Below, piece after piece: positions 15,010 to 22,073 of a stretch of DNA of 64,000 bases; position 1 is the first letter of the stretch, and each line of letters opens with the position of its first letter. Source of the stretch: Paenibacillaceae bacterium (lineage in GTDB: Bacteria; Bacillota; Clostridia; Lachnospirales; Lachnospiraceae); NCBI GenBank assembly GCA_015057705.1, contig SVDU01000020.1:1-64000 (forward strand), read 5' to 3'. The notes beneath the pieces are model-generated. The model did not search any database. It saw nothing but the letters and a program-made list of their open reading frames with translations, and had not been told where the DNA came from. The position numbers were made by a program, and so were the translations under genes.

Positions 15010-15984
15010 TCATTTCCTCACCGGTAACTGCTGCCGGTTAACCCGCTCCATAACCTGTTTTAAAAATGGAGCTGGACCAACCACTCTTATTACCGGACCG
15101 AATGCCAACACTTGAATTAACAGTTCGGTTTCTCTGGTTTTGTCATAGTAAATGGAACAGAGGTATTTTCCCGTTTCCTCCATCCGTTCAACTTTTTTCT
15201 GATAACTGGAAAAATGAAGCATAGTTCTTTCCAATGCATTGCGCTCATCTGAAATTTCCATAACCAACGGTTCCTGACAGAGTGTATCATCTGCAAGTCT
15301 GTCTATTTGAACTGGTTCTTTGATGTAATATCCTGTTTCTTCTATTTTAACAATTCGTCCAATATGTAAAACATCCATGCGCCAGCCATTTCTTCGTCTA
15401 TAAAGGGCGTAAAGCCGAAACTTGCCATCTTTGGCGGAATATTCAATCCAGCAGGGAAGATAAGTAAATTCAATCAGCCGCTGTTTGACAGAATAATAGG
15501 AGATTTTAAGCGTCTGATGTTGTTCCACCGCCTTTAAAATCAGCTGGAAATGATGCCGGAAAGAGATGTTTATCACATCTTGATCCTGAAATTGGTCAAA
15601 ATAGTGAAATGCTGATGGATCATAAAGCGGTGAAGTATCTGCTAAATCCTGCCAAAGCAGTTCCAGTTGTTCGTCAGTAAAAAACAGACTGATCCGTTCG
15701 TCATTAAGGAGAACTTTCAGCCAGGATTTTTGAAGAGAAGTTAGCGGAAAACGAACGGGATTGCACAGACGTGAAGTGTAATTTTTTCCGCTGTCATCAG
15801 GTGAAAATAAAGCCCAGTCCCCACTTAGCAGATGAGGGATGATTGACAATGCGCTTTCGTCGTAACCATATTTTTGGGCAATTTCCGTCATCTCGTTCTG
15901 GCTGACAGGCTTAAGGGATGCTTCCTCCAGTATTCGGGCGACAATCTGATAATAGCAATTATATATTTCTGAAAAGAGTTCCAT
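15010..15984 (-). CDS. WYL domain-containing regulator (downstream gene of pair)
   Basis: A protein of about 324 residues. The C-terminal half carries a WYL domain (LKISYYSVKQRLIEFTYLPC, then FRLYALYRRRNGWRMDVLHI), an SH3-like fold that in other regulators senses nucleic acid or nucleotide ligands. The N-terminal part is helical with no clear winged helix, so DNA binding may come from its partner. The ATG at 15984 follows AGGAGG and lies one base after the stop of the other WYL gene, so the earlier ATG at 16029 inside that gene is rejected. It is likely a co-regulator of the divergent rtcB operon. Confidence 0.78.
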   Translation of the reverse strand: MELFSEIYNCYYQIVARILEEASLKPVSQNEMTEIAQKYGYDESALSIIPHLLSGDWALFSPDDSGKNYTSRLCNPVRFPLTSLQKSWLKVLLNDERISLFFTDEQLELLWQDLADTSPLYDPSAFHYFDQFQDQDVINISFRHHFQLILKAVEQHQTLKISYYSVKQRLIEFTYLPCWIEYSAKDGKFRLYALYRRRNGWRMDVLHIGRIVKIEETGYYIKEPVQIDRLADDTLCQEPLVMEISDERNALERTMLHFSSYQKKVERMEETGKYLCSIYYDKTRETELLIQVLAFGPVIRVVGPAPFLKQVMERVNRQQLPVRK

Positions 15985-15985
15985 G

Positions 15986-17251
15986 TTACTGTCCTCCTGA
16001 AGGTATTGTATCAATATTTTCCCAGACATACATCTGCTGCATTTTCTTCATATCGTTCCAGAAACGTTGTTCCACCTGTTTATTTGAGCAGGTGAAATCA
16101 AGAATTCGTCCGGTGAAAGTTCTGATCCAGGGGAGTATTTCGGCGCTGTCCCAACATTCAATGGTATATTCGTAAATATCTGGCTGTATCCGCTTTAGCT
16201 GGCCTTGTCGGCCTTCCCGGTTGATCCTGTTAATTAGATAGCTTTCCGTCTTTTCTTCTATACTGAGCTGCAGGCATACCTGTTCCGGTTCCCGGCGGCA
16301 GCCAAACGAAACGCCCCAGATATAATCGCTGTTATTCTCATAACCCGCCAGATACCGGTCGTAATTTATATCTGATTTAAGAAGAGATACATTTTGTATG
16401 CTGTCCAGCCGATACGAAGCCAAACGACCGTTTGTCAGTCTTCGTACACATACGTAGCGGCGGCCGGTCTGGGTACTGATCCGTATTTTTAAAGGCACAC
16501 ACTCAAATTCATTGATATTACCGCTTCGAATATATTTGATCTGCATTCGTACTCGCTGTTTCTCCCTGATGGCCGTAAGAAGCGGAAGCAAAATCTCATC
16601 CTCCAGGGTGTGGGCCAGATAATCGTGTCGAAACCGAAAGTGGTCGTTTCGGCATCGCAGTGAATCCAGTATGGTGCTTCCAATAAAACCAAAGGGAGCA
16701 GCAGTCTGATAATAGGAGGCCGCTTCTTTTAGACCATGATATAAATCAGGATGGCTGGTCAGCAAATCCGTGCAAGCTGTATACAAGTGCTGACGGCCAT
16801 CTTTTTTTACTGAGAACAATCCGTTCTGCTCATATTCAATCAGTTTCTTGCGAACAGTCTGCACCTCAAACAGAGTCTGGTAGCGTTCCTGTAATTCATC
16901 ATTTATTGTTTCCACACTGCGTGATTTTCCATCCTGCATTAGATCCAGAAGAAAAAAGTGCAGCATGATATCATTATTTGTAAAGCTTTTGCTTTTCCAT
17001 ACATGAAATAAGGGGTTACTGTCAATTCGGTTACTGTCCATGGTGATGGCAACTGATTTCTTATGGCTGGAATCATAATCATACTGAATGTAATCAGCAA
17101 ACCAGCTTTCTATCCGCCTCCGTTCATTATCATAAGTGCGTCTGCCAGATTCCGGATAATCCATACGGGATTTAAACCCATAGACATAGAAATCACGTAC
17201 ATAAGTGCGTACTTTATTAAAATGTTTGATCAATTCATTAAATTCTGCCAT
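15986..17251 (-). CDS. WYL domain-containing transcriptional regulator
   Basis: A protein of about 421 residues. The N-terminal about 180 residues include a helical region and a probable winged helix (DELQERYQTLFEVQTVRKKL). A WYL domain follows (RVRMQIKYIRSGNINEFECV, ISTQTGRRYVCVRR, RLASYRLDSI) with a C-terminal extension near residues 330-400. The ATG at 17251 is chosen for its AGGAG site; the upstream ATG at 17269 has none. It faces rtcB across a 147-base divergent region and is translationally linked to the second WYL gene. It probably controls RNA-repair genes in response to RNA damage, as proposed for WYL-RtcB neighbourhoods (inference). Confidence 0.8.
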   Translation of the reverse strand: MAEFNELIKHFNKVRTYVRDFYVYGFKSRMDYPESGRRTYDNERRRIESWFADYIQYDYDSSHKKSVAITMDSNRIDSNPLFHVWKSKSFTNNDIMLHFFLLDLMQDGKSRSVETINDELQERYQTLFEVQTVRKKLIEYEQNGLFSVKKDGRQHLYTACTDLLTSHPDLYHGLKEAASYYQTAAPFGFIGSTILDSLRCRNDHFRFRHDYLAHTLEDEILLPLLTAIREKQRVRMQIKYIRSGNINEFECVPLKIRISTQTGRRYVCVRRLTNGRLASYRLDSIQNVSLLKSDINYDRYLAGYENNSDYIWGVSFGCRREPEQVCLQLSIEEKTESYLINRINREGRQGQLKRIQPDIYEYTIECWDSAEILPWIRTFTGRILDFTCSNKQVEQRFWNDMKKMQQMYVWENIDTIPSGGQ

Positions 17252-17293
17252 GTATTTTAGCTCCTGCATGATTAAATTGTGTTTATTTAATCT

Positions 17294-17323: not shown

Positions 17324-17398
17324 CTTTTTTTAAATGATTAATAGTATTTACAGTGCTATGATATAGCCATGGTAAGAAATGGAAACGGAGGAATCAAT

Positions 17399-18631
17399 AT
17401 GTTTGTTATTTATAATGAAAAAACAAGAAGGCCGATTAAGGTATGGCTGGAGAATATAGATCAGATTGAAAAAAGCTGTTTGGAGCAGGCGTATCACCTG
17501 GCTGATCTGCCATTTATACATAAGTGGGTTTGCCTGATGCCAGATACACATGCCGGAATGGGAATGCCCATCGGCGGAGTGATCGCTACCGAAGGTGTTA
17601 TTATACCCAATGCCGTTGGAGTGGACATTGGCTGTGGAATGAATTTCATCTCCACAAATATTAAAGCTGCAGCGCTAAAAGAAGTGGTAATTGGGAATGG
17701 CACGCTTGTGCAGACCATAATTGCAGATATAATGGGGGATATTCCTGTTGGCTTTAATTCACATATTGAAAAACAGACTTCCCATGTACTGGATCAGGCA
17801 CTTGAGCAGGCCGAAAAATATAAGAGCAATCAGGAATTGTTTCCCTTAATTGAATCTGCCTATTATCAGGTGGGAACTCTGGGAGGCGGAAATCATTTTA
17901 TAGAGCTTCAGGAAGATCAGGACGGCTATTTGGGAATTATGCTTCATTCCGGCAGCCGTCACTTTGGCAAACGTATCTGTGATGCTTATCATAAGAAAGC
18001 AAGAGCTCTAAATGAGATGTGGTATTCACACGTTCCTGATGAGTACCGTCTGGCATTTCTTCCGGTTGATTCAGAAGAAGGGCAGCAATACATTGCATGG
18101 ATGAATCTGGCTATGGATTATGCCTTTGAAAACCGGGCCAGAATGATGCAACGTGTAAAAGATATTGTGACAGAGAAAATTCAGAAATATTCAGATCAGA
18201 AGGTTGTTTTCGGTGAGGAAATTAACTGTCACCATAACTATGCGTCTTTGGAGAATCATTATGGTAAAAATGTCTGGGTACACAGAAAAGGTGCCACCAG
18301 AGCACGAAGCGGTGAGCTGGCAGTGATTCCCGGTGCAATGGGATCTTATAGCTATGTGGTAAAAGGCAGGGGCAATGAAGAAAGCTTTTGCACCTCTTCT
18401 CATGGTGCCGGACGTGCTTATTCCCGTAAGGGTGCAATGGAAGCATTTAGCTGTGAAGCCGTATTAAATGATCTGAAAGAACAGGGTATCGTTCTTGGTA
18501 AAACAAAAAAGGCAGATGTGGCAGAAGAAAGCCGCTTTGCTTACAAAGATATTGAAATTGTAATGGATAATCAAAATGATCTGGTTGAGATTGTTTCTAA
18601 ATTAAAGACCATTGCAGTAGTAAAAGGATAA
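17399..18631 (+). CDS. rtcB: RtcB family RNA ligase
   Basis: A 410-residue RNA ligase that joins 2',3'-cyclic phosphate or 3'-phosphate ends to 5'-OH ends using GTP and Mn2+. Visible active-site groups are D76 and C79 in GVDIGCG, N165/H166 in GGGNHFIEL, H183 in MLHSGSRHFG, H278/H279 in NCHHN, and the guanylylated H335 in SSHGAGRAYS. All expected residues appear present, and the length is normal for the bacterial clade. The ATG at 17399 has an ACGGAGG site and is preferred to the one at 17369. It heads a unit with a structured RNA, slipin and two nucleotidyltransferases. No archease or RtcA gene is visible. Confidence 0.92.
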   Translation: MFVIYNEKTRRPIKVWLENIDQIEKSCLEQAYHLADLPFIHKWVCLMPDTHAGMGMPIGGVIATEGVIIPNAVGVDIGCGMNFISTNIKAAALKEVVIGNGTLVQTIIADIMGDIPVGFNSHIEKQTSHVLDQALEQAEKYKSNQELFPLIESAYYQVGTLGGGNHFIELQEDQDGYLGIMLHSGSRHFGKRICDAYHKKARALNEMWYSHVPDEYRLAFLPVDSEEGQQYIAWMNLAMDYAFENRARMMQRVKDIVTEKIQKYSDQKVVFGEEINCHHNYASLENHYGKNVWVHRKGATRARSGELAVIPGAMGSYSYVVKGRGNEESFCTSSHGAGRAYSRKGAMEAFSCEAVLNDLKEQGIVLGKTKKADVAEESRFAYKDIEIVMDNQNDLVEIVSKLKTIAVVKG

Positions 18632-18645
18632 TTATCTGCTATATA

Positions 18646-18826
18646 CCAGCGTTAAATGCTGGATGGTGCCGGCTGTAATACAGTTCGGTATGCCGCAGAA
18701 ATTATATAAATGCGAGGTGTGGGAAAAACCACATTCGCCCAAATGATTATTTGCAGGTTCGAATCCTGCCGGTTATGAAACCGATTCTCAATGGTGGAGA
18801 GATCATACAGACACCTACCAAGTGTC
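18646..18826 (+). ncRNA. tRNA-like / Y-RNA-like RNA element between rtcB and slipin
   Basis: No protein-like open frame lies here. The sequence folds into consecutive hairpins. One is 18646-18662 (5 bp). A second at 18665-18694 has an inner CTGT/ACAG and an outer TGCCG/CGGTA. A third at 18712-18738 pairs GCGA with TCGC and TGTGG with CCACA. A perfect tRNA T arm follows (stem 18753-18757 with 18765-18769, loop TTCGAAT), then 18770-18783 and 18810-18826. The T arm is preceded by a small AAAT/ATTT stem, as in a long variable arm. No 7-nt anticodon loop, clean acceptor stem or CCA is present, so it is not a normal tRNA. T-arm mimicry next to rtcB recalls the YrlA module of bacterial Y RNAs (inference). 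Confidence 0.6.
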
Positions 18827-18847
18827 CAACTTAATGATATGTAAATA

Positions 18848-19102
18848 TGATATCTGCCAGTCAGTTTGCTTTCAGTGCCAGAAAACCGGCATTCTCAGTT
18901 TTTTGGAGATCTCCGGTGCTGGTATATGATGCAGGTATGACAGCAGAGCGGCAGTTTTGTACTGGTCGTTTCCTTCCGTACAGTTTCTGGTCTCATTTCC
19001 TGGGGGATGGAGAGTCAAAAGAAGGCTTTCCGGGCAGCAGGTAACCGGATCAGAAACCAGGCTAAGGCCGGTCAGTCCGCAGCTTCTCTGAGGCAGATAT
19101 CA
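18848..19102 (+). ncRNA. candidate structured RNA domain, 255 nt
   Basis: The ends of this non-coding block form an 11-bp perfect long-range helix (18848-18858 with 19092-19102). Inside, several further helices are compatible: 18885-18891 with 18917-18923 (7 bp), 18983-18992 with 19048-19057 (10 bp, one G-U), and 19009-19016 with 19024-19031 (8 bp, seven-base loop). Local GC is higher than in nearby intergenic DNA. It ends about 50 bases before the slipin start, where the sequence becomes A-rich and unstructured. It may be one transcript with the tRNA-like part. I do not recognise a known RNA family. Confidence 0.5.
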
Positions 19103-19154
19103 GACTTACATTTACAAACAAAAAACAAATAATATAAATAAGAGGCGACAAACT

Positions 19155-20258
19155 ATGAAATATATAATCAATCAGAATGAATGTGGTTATTTAATGAAAA
19201 ACGGTATTTTTATCAAAACCTTATACTACGGTAAGCATCGCTATTCCAGAACGTTTGGCTATCAGGTTATAATTGAAAAGATGGAAAACATGGTTGATTT
19301 TGAAATATTGCCCATAGAGGTATTGTTAAAGGATCAATCATTTGCTGATAGAATTTTACATATTAAGATTCCGGAGGGACACATCGGTATTTTGCGATAT
19401 AATGGTGTGGTACAAAAGGTGCTGACTGAGCCTGTATATCTGTATTGGAATAACTGGAAACAATATGAGTATGAGCTCTTAGATATGAGAGAGGCGAAAA
19501 CGAAATCAGAAATCACAAAATCCCGTCTGACTCATATTCCGCTAAAATATTATAAGAAAGTGGAGATTAAAACAGGTGAAACCGGTATTTTATTTTTCGA
19601 CAATCAGATTGTGGAAGAATTAGCGGCAGGTACTTATTATTACTGGACGTATGCCAAGGATGTATTATGCCAGGTGATTGATTTGAAAACCAAAACATTA
19701 GAGATAAACGGTCAGGAGATCCTGACGGCCGACCGAATCGGCATCAGAGTTAATCTGCTTTGTACATACCGGGTTACTCAGGCACAAAGAATGCTTGAGA
19801 CCATAAAGAATCTGGAAACTCAGCTGTATGCCTGCGCGCAGCTGGTGGTAAGAGAATATATCGGTTCCTATCGTCTGGATGAGATTTTAGAGCAGAAAGA
19901 AGAGATCTCAGGTTTTATCTTTGCACGGCTGAAAGAGGTTCAGGAGGACTACTGTGTGGAATATTTGACTGCTGGTATCAAAGATATCATATTACCAGGC
20001 GAGATCCGGGATATTATGAATACTGTACTGATAGCTGAGCGGAAAGCACAAGCCAATGTTATCACCAGGCGGGAGGAGGTGGCTTCCACCCGGTCACTGC
20101 TCAATACGGCAAAATTAATGGATGAGAACAAAACTCTCTATAAACTAAAGGAGTTAGAGTGTCTGGAACGTATCTGCATGCAAGTAGGTAATATCAATGT
20201 AGCAGGCAGCGGCGCATTGCTGGGACAGCTCAGGGAGTTAATGGGCAGCGGTGTATAA
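19155..20258 (+). CDS. slipin / SPFH domain protein
   Basis: A 367-residue member of the stomatin/slipin group. The N-terminal about 130 residues are a diverged repeat-rich region. A clear SPFH/band-7 core follows (VEIKTGETGILFFDNQIVEE, TYYYWTYAKDVLCQVIDLKT, ILTADRIGIRVNLLCTYRV), then a helical part (AERKAQANVITRREEVASTR) typical of oligomerising slipins. No long N-terminal membrane helix is obvious, so membrane association would be peripheral or through partners. SPFH proteins are recurrent neighbours of RtcB; the mechanism is unknown. It follows the structured RNA spacer directly. Confidence 0.85.
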   Translation: MKYIINQNECGYLMKNGIFIKTLYYGKHRYSRTFGYQVIIEKMENMVDFEILPIEVLLKDQSFADRILHIKIPEGHIGILRYNGVVQKVLTEPVYLYWNNWKQYEYELLDMREAKTKSEITKSRLTHIPLKYYKKVEIKTGETGILFFDNQIVEELAAGTYYYWTYAKDVLCQVIDLKTKTLEINGQEILTADRIGIRVNLLCTYRVTQAQRMLETIKNLETQLYACAQLVVREYIGSYRLDEILEQKEEISGFIFARLKEVQEDYCVEYLTAGIKDIILPGEIRDIMNTVLIAERKAQANVITRREEVASTRSLLNTAKLMDENKTLYKLKELECLERICMQVGNINVAGSGALLGQLRELMGSGV

Positions 20259-20289: not shown

Positions 20290-21312
20290 ATGAAAGACTT
20301 CAAAAAATTAATTAATTCAGCTGACTATGATTTCCTTAGAAAACACGAAAGATTGGGAAATAATATTATCCTTCTTGGTTTGGGCGGCAGTCACGCATAT
20401 GGAACAAACAATGAGAACAGTGATATTGATTTCCGCGGTATTACTCTCAATTTACCATCTGATCTGATTGGTTTAACAGAATTCCAACAGTATGAGGATT
20501 TAAAGACAGATACAGTCATTTATTCATTTAATAAGATAGTAAGATTGCTGCTTGAGTGTAATCCAAACACATGTGAGATTCTTGGACTGGATGAAGACCA
20601 GTATTTTATTAAAACAAAACTGGGTCAGGAATTACTTGAAAATAAGGGACTTTTTCTCTCCAAAAGGGCGGCGAAATCTTTTGGGGGATATGCAGGTGCA
20701 CAGCTGAGACGTCTTCAAAATGCTATAGCCAGGGATTCTATGCCTCAGACAGAAAAGGAGATACATATCTTAAATTCCGTCAAGAATGCACTGGAGGATT
20801 TTCAGCGGCGTTATGACAGCATTGATCAGGGAAGCATTCATCTTTATATTGATACAGCTGTAAACCGTGAATTTGACACAGAGATATTTGTAGATGCCTC
20901 GTATAAGCACCTGCCGCTGCGTGATTATGAAAACATGTGGTCCGTTATGCATAATGTTGTTAAGGATTACGATAAGATAGGAAAACGGAACAGAAAAAAG
21001 GATGACAATCATCTGAACAAGCACGCCATGCATTTAATCAGGCTGTTTATGATGGCAATTGATATATTGGAAAAGGGTGAGATTAATACCAGCCGGAAGA
21101 ATGACCTGGATCTGCTTAAAAAGATAAGGAGCGGCAGTTTTCAACGGGATGATAAAACATTTGACAGTGAATTCTATGATATACTCGCAGATTATGAAGG
21201 CAGGCTTGAGAAAGCAATAAAGGTAAGCGTTTTACCAGATAATCCGGATATGGATAAAGTTGAGGCGTTCGTTGAATATATCAACAAGAAAGTGATAGAG
21301 GGTGATTATTGA
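20290..21312 (+). CDS. pol-beta-type nucleotidyltransferase (YcgL-like), long form
   Basis: A 340-residue protein. The nucleotidyltransferase motif is GLGGSHAYGTNNENSDIDFR near residues 31-50, with the GS and DxD metal-binding pair that define the pol-beta superfamily. The remaining about 270 residues are helical, with a conserved-looking HLNKHAMHLIRLFMMA segment. Families with this layout (COG3541-like) are predicted nucleotidyltransferases of unknown substrate. In an RtcB operon an RNA 3'-end or tRNA modification role is attractive (inference). It starts after an AGGGGGAG site, and the next gene starts on its stop codon. Confidence 0.82.
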   Translation: MKDFKKLINSADYDFLRKHERLGNNIILLGLGGSHAYGTNNENSDIDFRGITLNLPSDLIGLTEFQQYEDLKTDTVIYSFNKIVRLLLECNPNTCEILGLDEDQYFIKTKLGQELLENKGLFLSKRAAKSFGGYAGAQLRRLQNAIARDSMPQTEKEIHILNSVKNALEDFQRRYDSIDQGSIHLYIDTAVNREFDTEIFVDASYKHLPLRDYENMWSVMHNVVKDYDKIGKRNRKKDDNHLNKHAMHLIRLFMMAIDILEKGEINTSRKNDLDLLKKIRSGSFQRDDKTFDSEFYDILADYEGRLEKAIKVSVLPDNPDMDKVEAFVEYINKKVIEGDY

Positions 21313-22073
21313 TGTTTGATATCAGAAGTGAAATTCAACAAAAGTTGTTGGAAATTGAAAAGAAAGAGAATGTAAAAATTTTGCATGCAGTGGAGTCAGG
21401 AAGCCGAGCATGGGGGGTTGCATCGCCGGATAGTGATTATGATGTCCGATTTATTTATATCAGGAGAAAGGAAGATTATCTTAAATTAAATGAATCAAAG
21501 GATGTGATAGATTGGCAGCTTGATGAAGTGCTGGATATCAATGGCTGGGATTTAAAAAAAGTATTAAAACAGTTCTACCGGGGAAATGCAACTTTATTTG
21601 AATGGAGTAATTCCCCGATTGTATATAAGACAACTGAATTATGGAAACAGATATATGATGAAGCAAAAGGCTGCTTTTCAATAAAAGCAGCGGCATACCA
21701 TTATTATGGTACTGCAAAAAACACATATATCAAGTATTTGCAGGAAGAGTCTGTGAAGTATAAAAAATATTTCTATGCATTAAGACCTTTGCTTGCAGGA
21801 AAGTATATACAGGAATTTCAGTGTCCGCCTCCTGTATTATTTGATGATCTTATGAAAATGAATATTCCGGCAGAACTTCGTAATGGAATTGATGAGCTGT
21901 TAGAAATCAAAAAAAAGAGTGATGAAAAAGAAAAGGGTGCACAAATTTCAGTGATTCAGGATTTTATCAACAACGAATTAGAAAATCAAAAAGCTTATGT
22001 GGAAAGCATTTCGGATGATAGAAAACATGAGTGGGATGATTTGAACCATATTTTTTTGAAAACGTTCAGTTAA
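21312..22073 (+). CDS. pol-beta-type nucleotidyltransferase (YcgL-like), short form
   Basis: A 253-residue second nucleotidyltransferase with the motif VESGSRAWGVASPDSDYDVR near residues 27-46, again with the GS and DxD residues. It then has LDINGWDLKKVLKQFYRGN and a helical tail. It is a different subfamily from its neighbour (GSRAWG rather than GSHAYG), so the two are not a recent duplication. The ATG shares its A with the upstream TGA (TGATG), indicating coupled translation. It is the last gene of the rtcB unit; a weak terminator follows. Confidence 0.8.
   Translation: MFDIRSEIQQKLLEIEKKENVKILHAVESGSRAWGVASPDSDYDVRFIYIRRKEDYLKLNESKDVIDWQLDEVLDINGWDLKKVLKQFYRGNATLFEWSNSPIVYKTTELWKQIYDEAKGCFSIKAAAYHYYGTAKNTYIKYLQEESVKYKKYFYALRPLLAGKYIQEFQCPPPVLFDDLMKMNIPAELRNGIDELLEIKKKSDEKEKGAQISVIQDFINNELENQKAYVESISDDRKHEWDDLNHIFLKTFS

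Follow-up and report, generated by a model that had tools for sequence, protein, structure and literature searches.

The window (the whole 64,000-nucleotide stretch of DNA that was analysed) carried an RNA ligase gene followed by a slipin gene and two nucleotidyltransferase genes, with two regulator genes on the opposite strand:

15010..16029, minus strand: second WYL-type regulator (no Pfam match; PADLOC WYL, E 3.1e-10)
15986..17269, minus strand: divergent WYL-type regulator (Pfam WYL, 20 bits against a cut-off of 21.8; PADLOC WYL, E 6.2e-11)
17369..18631, plus strand: rtcB, RNA ligase (listed open reading frame; Pfam RtcB, 375.3 bits)
19155..20258, plus strand: slipin, SPFH/Band-7 protein (Pfam Band_7, 85.7 bits)
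20290..21312, plus strand: nucleotidyltransferase, RlaP family (60.6 bits)
21309..22073, plus strand: nucleotidyltransferase, RlaP family, RNA repair pathway (290.2 bits)

The family search for rtcB used a later ATG at 17399. The RNA element described here occupied the spacer between the end of rtcB at 18631 and the start of slipin at 19155. A promoter-like match was located upstream of it on the plus strand (18552-18580), and no strong terminator was found between the element and slipin, where one weak candidate lay at 18874-18893.

Positions 18632-18850 had a predicted fold of -65.8 kcal/mol (z -3.55), which none of 200 shuffles equalled. For the whole spacer (18632-19154) the z score was -6.0, and none of 100 shuffles was as good. 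The following parts, all on the plus strand, were distinguished:

18635..18699: 5' domain, three-way junction (predicted fold)
18635-18639/18695-18699: P1 helix of the 5' domain (fold of the window sequence only)
18646-18662: P2 hairpin of the 5' domain (fold of the window sequence only)
18665-18694: P3 hairpin of the 5' domain, GGUGC ... GUAUGCC (fold and covariation)
18742..18806: permuted tRNA core, YrlA-like (62.4 bits, E 3.4e-19 in its own genome with our covariance model R1, partly a self-match since the window sequence is one of the 29 in that model; Rfam YrlA below gathering score)
18753..18769: T arm, GCAGG-TTCGAAT-CCTGC (sequence; T arm in 79/81 loci)
18770..18783: acceptor-like stem capped by a tetraloop, CGGTT-ATGA-AACCG (fold; pairs covary)
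18786..18800: D arm, TCTC-AATGGTG-GAGA, with GG in the loop (fold; pairs covary)
18810..18826: anticodon-arm-like hairpin, GACAC-CTACCAA-GTGTC, 7-nt loop with the triplet ACC at 18817-18819

According to the fold and the comparison of loci, a closing helix (18743-18748 with 18801-18806) enclosed the T arm, the capped acceptor-like hairpin and the D arm, and the order of these parts was that of a rotated tRNA, namely T arm, acceptor and D arm. Since the acceptor-like stem was closed by a tetraloop, it had neither a free 3' end nor a CCA, and no CCA was present in the sequence 3' of the T arm. The initial annotation had correctly placed the T arm at 18753-18769 and had noted the missing CCA, which agreed with the closed acceptor end. 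It had also denied an anticodon arm of tRNA type and a clean acceptor stem; both statements had to be revised, since a hairpin with a 7-nt loop resembling an anticodon arm lay at 18810-18826 and the acceptor-like stem was the capped hairpin directly following the T arm (18770-18783). The D arm, the capped acceptor and the anticodon arm were all absent from its description.

ARAGORN predicted no tRNA gene in the window and Rfam at gathering cut-offs reported nothing there, the Rfam tRNA model reaching 15.9 bits against a cut-off of 29. Accordingly, matches below the thresholds were checked by comparison. By eye, we also considered a long-range helix pairing the 5' end with the end near slipin, and did not retain it.

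The comparison was based on 81 loci, namely the window and the best 80 of 104 relatives that were obtained by scanning public genomes with the slipin protein. These clostridial loci carried varied labels (Lacrimispora, Hungatella, Lachnospiraceae, Clostridiaceae and others), and 47 of them (L001-L045, L059 and L065) were assigned by us to the window's group. A T arm with four inner pairs was located upstream of slipin in 79 of the 81 loci and was not found under this rule in L071 and L078; a rule of five pairs left 73. In 50 mononucleotide shuffles it occurred in 0.06 loci on average and in 1 at most. At least two T arms were present in 21 of the 81 spacers, and none was found in the 30 other Band-7 loci of the genus that were the best-scoring of a longer list. 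The distance from the T arm to slipin varied between loci from about 250 to more than 1100 nt, and the spacers of close relatives had conserved patches near slipin.

The neighbouring genes were kept less regularly. Counting loci cut by contig ends, rtcB was found in 50 of the 81 loci, 33 of these copies reaching at least 60% identity, and was not seen in 31; WYL-type regulators occurred in 61, and tblastn relatives of the window's two nucleotidyltransferases were found in 4 and 6. Thus, with rtcB not seen in 31 of 81 loci and few relatives of the nucleotidyltransferases, the RNA tracked slipin and not the remaining genes. In five loci without rtcB (L006, L007, L009, L010 and L012) divergent WYL genes were followed by the RNA, and a conserved TTTTTGAAATGA stretch was visible by eye upstream of it. 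This stretch may be the RNA's own promoter in these five loci.

For the core we built an alignment (A1) from 32 of the 81 loci chosen by hand; L042, for which the wrong T arm had been picked, and L025 and L036, which had long acceptor loops, were dropped, leaving 29 sequences. Compensatory changes on both sides with pairing kept were observed in 14 of 17 pairs, and 95.7% of the cells were paired. The covariation score was 0.659, compared with 0.171 +/- 0.018 after shuffling and a maximum of 0.178 for slid alignments; four of five measures were matched by none of 500 shuffles and the fifth (further pair types) by 6. Retention of the T arm in related spacers had been set beforehand as a test of the element, which came through it with the arm in 79 of 81 loci and this excess of covariation in the core (0.659 versus 0.171). 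The P3 hairpin was aligned in 38 of 44 sequences (A3; 8 loci were skipped by hand, as were all those without the motif). In these 38 loci 98.1% of the cells were paired and the covariation was 0.533 versus 0.111 when shuffled, with two of the five measures not above the shuffles (pair counts and type counts, matched by 227 and 103 of 500). GGTGC/GTATNCC had served to select the loci, so part of the invariance of this motif was a product of selection. Within the 5' domain covariation appears to argue for P3 alone, and P1 and P2 are helices of the predicted fold.

The covariance model R1, built from A1, found 16 further loci at 59.9 bits or more among the 52 others, which brought the total to 45 of the 47 loci in the window's group (29 of these match by construction; L034 and L035 were missed). 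Outside this group R1 gave 12-31 bits, and 20 loci had 20-31 bits at the T arm on the slipin side. Since 12-31 bits was within the range of tRNA arrays, the full core was, among the 81 loci, recovered only in the window's group. In its own genome the element scored 62.4 bits and the next place, a tRNA array, 42 bits. All 15 lower-scoring loci that were checked (L083-L089 in the own genome, L105-L112 in others) held at least three tRNA genes. Adjacent tRNA genes imitate the rotated order, and therefore only matches of at least 54 bits were counted. Taking all R1 matches as real was rejected: at E 0.001, 249 of 250 genomes contained a match. As a practical point, tRNA arrays gave R1 matches up to about 50 bits, so any scan for permuted tRNA-like RNAs has to exclude such arrays.

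We also searched 250 family genomes, chosen by even sampling and scored under stricter filters; some of their species were shared with the relatives from the slipin scan. Of these genomes 16 (the own genome included) had matches of at least 54 bits. Nine of these were located beside slipin and rtcB, one beside slipin at a contig end and six elsewhere; of these six, two adjoined a distant RtcB and one a DUF2828/DUF7788 protein. Within the genus, a close copy of the RNA was present in 7 of 25 genomes, the own genome included, and we infer that such a patchy distribution fits a defence or repair island.

The main rival to a bait or decoy function, which is discussed below, was a cis-acting leader, in which the tRNA-like fold belongs to the rtcB-slipin mRNA and would regulate slipin, for instance through binding or cleavage of the fold by tRNA enzymes upon tRNA damage. 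The T arms were upstream of slipin on the same strand, the only terminator candidate before slipin was the weak one at 18874-18893, and the spacer was structured all the way to slipin with conserved patches near it in close relatives, all of which would be expected of a leader. However, a distance to slipin that ranged from about 250 to more than 1100 nt, a core with the closed, rotated tRNA form of YrlA, and the location of the R1 core away from slipin in 6 of the 16 high-scoring genomes spoke against it, and we consider control of slipin in cis rather unlikely.

The relation to YrlA was apparent from Rfam under permissive settings, where YrlA (RF02553) was the best match in the spacer (18745-18805, 27.4 bits, E 0.0011), covering only model positions 23-86 of 114. 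At the core, YrlA was also the top Rfam match of all 15 loci that we picked for scanning (9 linked to slipin, including the window, and 6 other R1 matches). With scores of 27.3-53.6 bits, all 15 stayed below the gathering cut-off of 69 bits; the best scores belonged to L100 (53.6 bits) and L022 (44.2 bits). By set, YrlA matched seven of seven slipin loci picked by hand, L024 at E 0.12 only, and eight of eight loci in a further set that included the window. Model coverage, which bears on the basal stem that binds Ro in YrlA, extended over positions 1-114 in seven loci (L032, L033, L094, L095, L100, L102 and L103). The core thus had the feature of the YrlA type, a rotated succession of T arm, capped acceptor and D arm, as in the YrlA RNA of RF02553 and PDB 6CU1. 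In the passages available, 6CU1 is described as circularly permuted relative to tRNA (PMC11472068), and the tRNA-like domain of YrlA with mention of D, T and acceptor arms only (PMC8394870). In contrast to YrlA, the partner here was slipin and not Ro60, and the RNA had an extra 5' hairpin domain as well as an added mimic of the anticodon arm, of which the passage in PMC8394870 makes no mention.

A search for the TROVE (Ro60) gene found none in 25 genomes of the genus, the own genome included, and was positive in the control genome of Deinobacterium chartae. Since the scores were below the cut-off and Ro was not found in these genomes, the RNA fell outside the tests for the YrlA family despite its likeness to the tRNA-mimicking half. 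An ordinary Y RNA serving a Ro60 protein encoded elsewhere would account for the YrlA-like core, but the TROVE result, obtained with a positive control, and the YrlA matches, all under the gathering score, made this quite improbable. The comparison with YrlA proposed in the initial annotation was borne out by the core matches in the window and in all 14 other loci, each below the cut-off, and its statement that no TROVE gene was present was extended from the locus to the own genome and the 25 genomes of the genus that include it. Its suggestion of a tRNA mimic belonging to an RtcB system is in line with a Y-RNA-like core in an RtcB/slipin/RlaP locus without Ro, as far as sequence comparison can tell.

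Several YrlA-like RNAs had other neighbours. Those in L095 (1501-1568, minus strand, R1 61.7 bits) and L098 (1501-1571, minus strand, R1 58.9 bits) had a distant RtcB on one side and, on the other, a protein of roughly 420-455 aa without a Pfam match; the L095 protein also had no match in PADLOC or NCBIfam. This protein is possibly another Ro-free partner. In L097 (1452-1523, minus strand) and L102 (1501-1570, minus strand) the RNA adjoined long proteins without a Pfam match, and the one in L097 resembled the MXAN_6230/SCO0854 RING-domain family (341.8 bits, below the cut-off of 600). The RNA of L103 (1501-1564, plus strand) was upstream of a DUF2828/DUF7788 protein, which may be TROVE-like. 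In L100 (1501-1570, plus strand, YrlA 53.6 bits) the flanking reading frames looked transposase-like by eye, and some such RNAs may therefore travel with mobile elements.

The anticodon-like arm was searched for in all 81 spacers with a strict rule for its loop (C/U, U, three free bases, A, A/C), T arms being excluded. There were 44 such arms in 42 of the 81 spacers, compared with a mean of 2.6 and a maximum of 6 in 100 shuffles and with 2 in slipin coding sequence of equal length. The triplets were GTC (16), GTT (6), GTA (4), TAA and TTC (3 each), ACC, TCC and TTT (2 each) and six others once; near-identical loci were counted singly, so these counts were not independent. Position 34 was G or T in 41 of 44 arms versus 148 of 258 in shuffles. 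Moreover, 42 of the 44 triplets were usual bacterial anticodons according to a list that covers 30 of the 64, and the two exceptions were the ACC triplets of the window and L004. ACC is not known as a usual bacterial anticodon. The GUN triplets (27 of 44) and the Lys, Glu and Gly triplets belong to tRNAs that known anticodon nucleases attack.

In seven copies from the Lacrimispora group the 14 other arm positions were invariant and all three triplet positions varied, the triplets being ACC, GTC, GTT and GCT; the probability of this pattern by chance was 0.0085 in a hypergeometric test made after the pattern had been seen. On a tree of 22 sequences, from which L018 (arm degenerate by eye) and L120-L123 (apparently the same genomes as L002-L005) were left out, the triplet columns changed 6, 6 and 3 times, the stem columns 0-2 times and one loop-flank column 4 times. 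Elsewhere 17 of 163 columns changed at least 6 times, and thus fast change alone was not special to the triplet. The contrast between the triplet and the rest inside the arm was clear. A constant loop frame combined with a triplet that switches between close relatives suggests a bait for anticodon nucleases. A role of the triplet in a kissing interaction or pseudoknot was considered by eye and dropped, ACC and GTC being found in nearly identical RNAs. A fixed position of the arm was likewise rejected: in loci of the window's type it came 3' of the core, and other loci had it upstream of the T arm. In L049, L050, L056 and L064 only 5-6 nt separated the anticodon arm from the T arm behind it, a spacing like that of tRNA, and a capped acceptor came next, which made these RNAs a nearly full tRNA in rotated order. 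Under a relaxed rule an arm directly before the T arm was present in 6 of 81 loci, a weak signal given a mean of 1.2 and a maximum of 6 in shuffles.

Circularly permuted tRNA genes give chargeable tRNAs, and the element resembled them in having the 3' half encoded before the 5' half. A permuted tRNA gene whose transcript is cleaved and then joined by RtcB to give a working tRNA would agree with the rotated order, the adjacent RtcB and the anticodon-like loop, and also with the arrangement in L049, L050, L056 and L064, which are outside the window's group. However, the acceptor end, from which a functional permuted tRNA would have to yield a CCA end, was here a closed loop capped by a tetraloop and had no CCA, the acceptor-like stem often had 4-5 pairs and a short closing loop, the anticodon hairpin was outside the closing helix in the window's type, and the triplets differed within one genus. 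A working tRNA of this origin therefore seemed very improbable. T arms also occur in tRNA remnants, as is generally known, but the compensatory changes and the wide conservation contradicted both tRNA decay and a chance origin of the T arm, which hardly need to be considered.

Burroughs and Aravind (NAR, 2016) reportedly described RtcB repair systems with a Band-7 scaffold, an RlaP-type nucleotidyltransferase and "a novel tRNA-like molecule". All four components of this reported system were present at the window locus. Here, too, the RNA-repair locus contained a tRNA-like RNA next to an SPFH/Band-7 gene, and the reported 2016 prediction places it within an already known kind. The term "uncharacterised" used in the initial annotation is, we believe, still right for experiments, but not for prediction, a tRNA-like RNA with Band-7 repair having reportedly been predicted in 2016. 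We know of no experimental test of the tRNA-like RNA of Band-7 repair systems. Novel features may be the rotation of the YrlA-like core and the switching of the triplet. Among the matches listed, no paper described the window's RNA in the passages available; one of them cites the 2016 survey for RNA-repair systems and RlaP (PMC6514570).

Related arrangements have been reported in other bacteria. The rsr-yrlBA-rtcBA operon of Salmonella similarly combines an RNA ligase with a tRNA-like non-coding RNA, but it has Ro (Rsr), RtcA and the RtcR regulator where the window had slipin, RlaP and WYL regulators (according to the passages available from PMC7790460). According to the same passages, the tRNA-like domain of Salmonella YrlA was suggested to be a competitive inhibitor of an anticodon nuclease, and YrlA fragments were not detected when tRNAs were cut, so YrlA was judged not to be a nuclease substrate (PMC7790460). 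In Pseudomonas aeruginosa, PaFlo8 is an SPFH gene within an RtcA/RtcB/RtcR RNA-repair locus, similar to the window, and the passage describing it, unlike the window locus, mentions no RNA (PMC13086221). In Anabaena, a slipin-type gene and rtcB are both listed, at 42- and 77-fold, in the table that accompanies the section on the genes under control of the TrcR repressor (PMC10272220). Together, as far as these excerpts go, the Anabaena table and the P. aeruginosa rtc locus were two independent hints that slipin-type genes are linked with rtcB.

In our main reading, the spacer encodes a non-coding RNA of about 200 nt that would be part of an RtcB-slipin-RlaP RNA-repair system; judging from sequence and gene context, we assign it a probability of about 0.5. 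Since related bacteria retain such an RNA next to genes of this kind, the tRNA mimic is probably a functional component of a decoy system or of one that repairs tRNA damage. The closed acceptor end would rule out charging, and since it is closed the RNA would remain uncharged and act by being taken for a tRNA, that is, as a tRNA stand-in. The 5' domain or the core might dock on the SPFH/slipin assembly, which would then have the role that Ro60 has for Y RNAs, and the tRNA face would be shown to enzymes that recognise the tRNA elbow and the anticodon loop. Most likely, the RNA would retain or attract nucleases that cut tRNA, together with tRNA-repair enzymes, at a single site. Cuts within its anticodon-like loop would be harmless to the cell, RtcB could reseal cut ends with a 2',3'-cyclic phosphate and a 5'-OH, and RlaP could rebuild trimmed ends. 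We tentatively propose, as a possibility that we would not yet favour, a Ro-free Y-RNA-like decoy held by slipin and resealed by its own ligase after every cut, with an interchangeable bait triplet that would be swapped within short evolutionary spans to match or dodge anticodon nucleases. The reported lack of YrlA fragments in Salmonella, as far as the excerpts describe it, argues against a simple transfer of the bait idea.

The element bears on what bacterial RtcB repairs and on why scaffold proteins and tRNA-like RNAs adjoin it. With a conserved tRNA mimic whose loop is constant and whose triplet changes, a decoy or bait function could be put to a direct test. The covariance model is available to annotate such RNAs, which were missed in the window by ARAGORN and by Rfam at its cut-off. 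Finally, the RNA would show that tRNA mimicry of the Y-RNA type is possible without Ro60.
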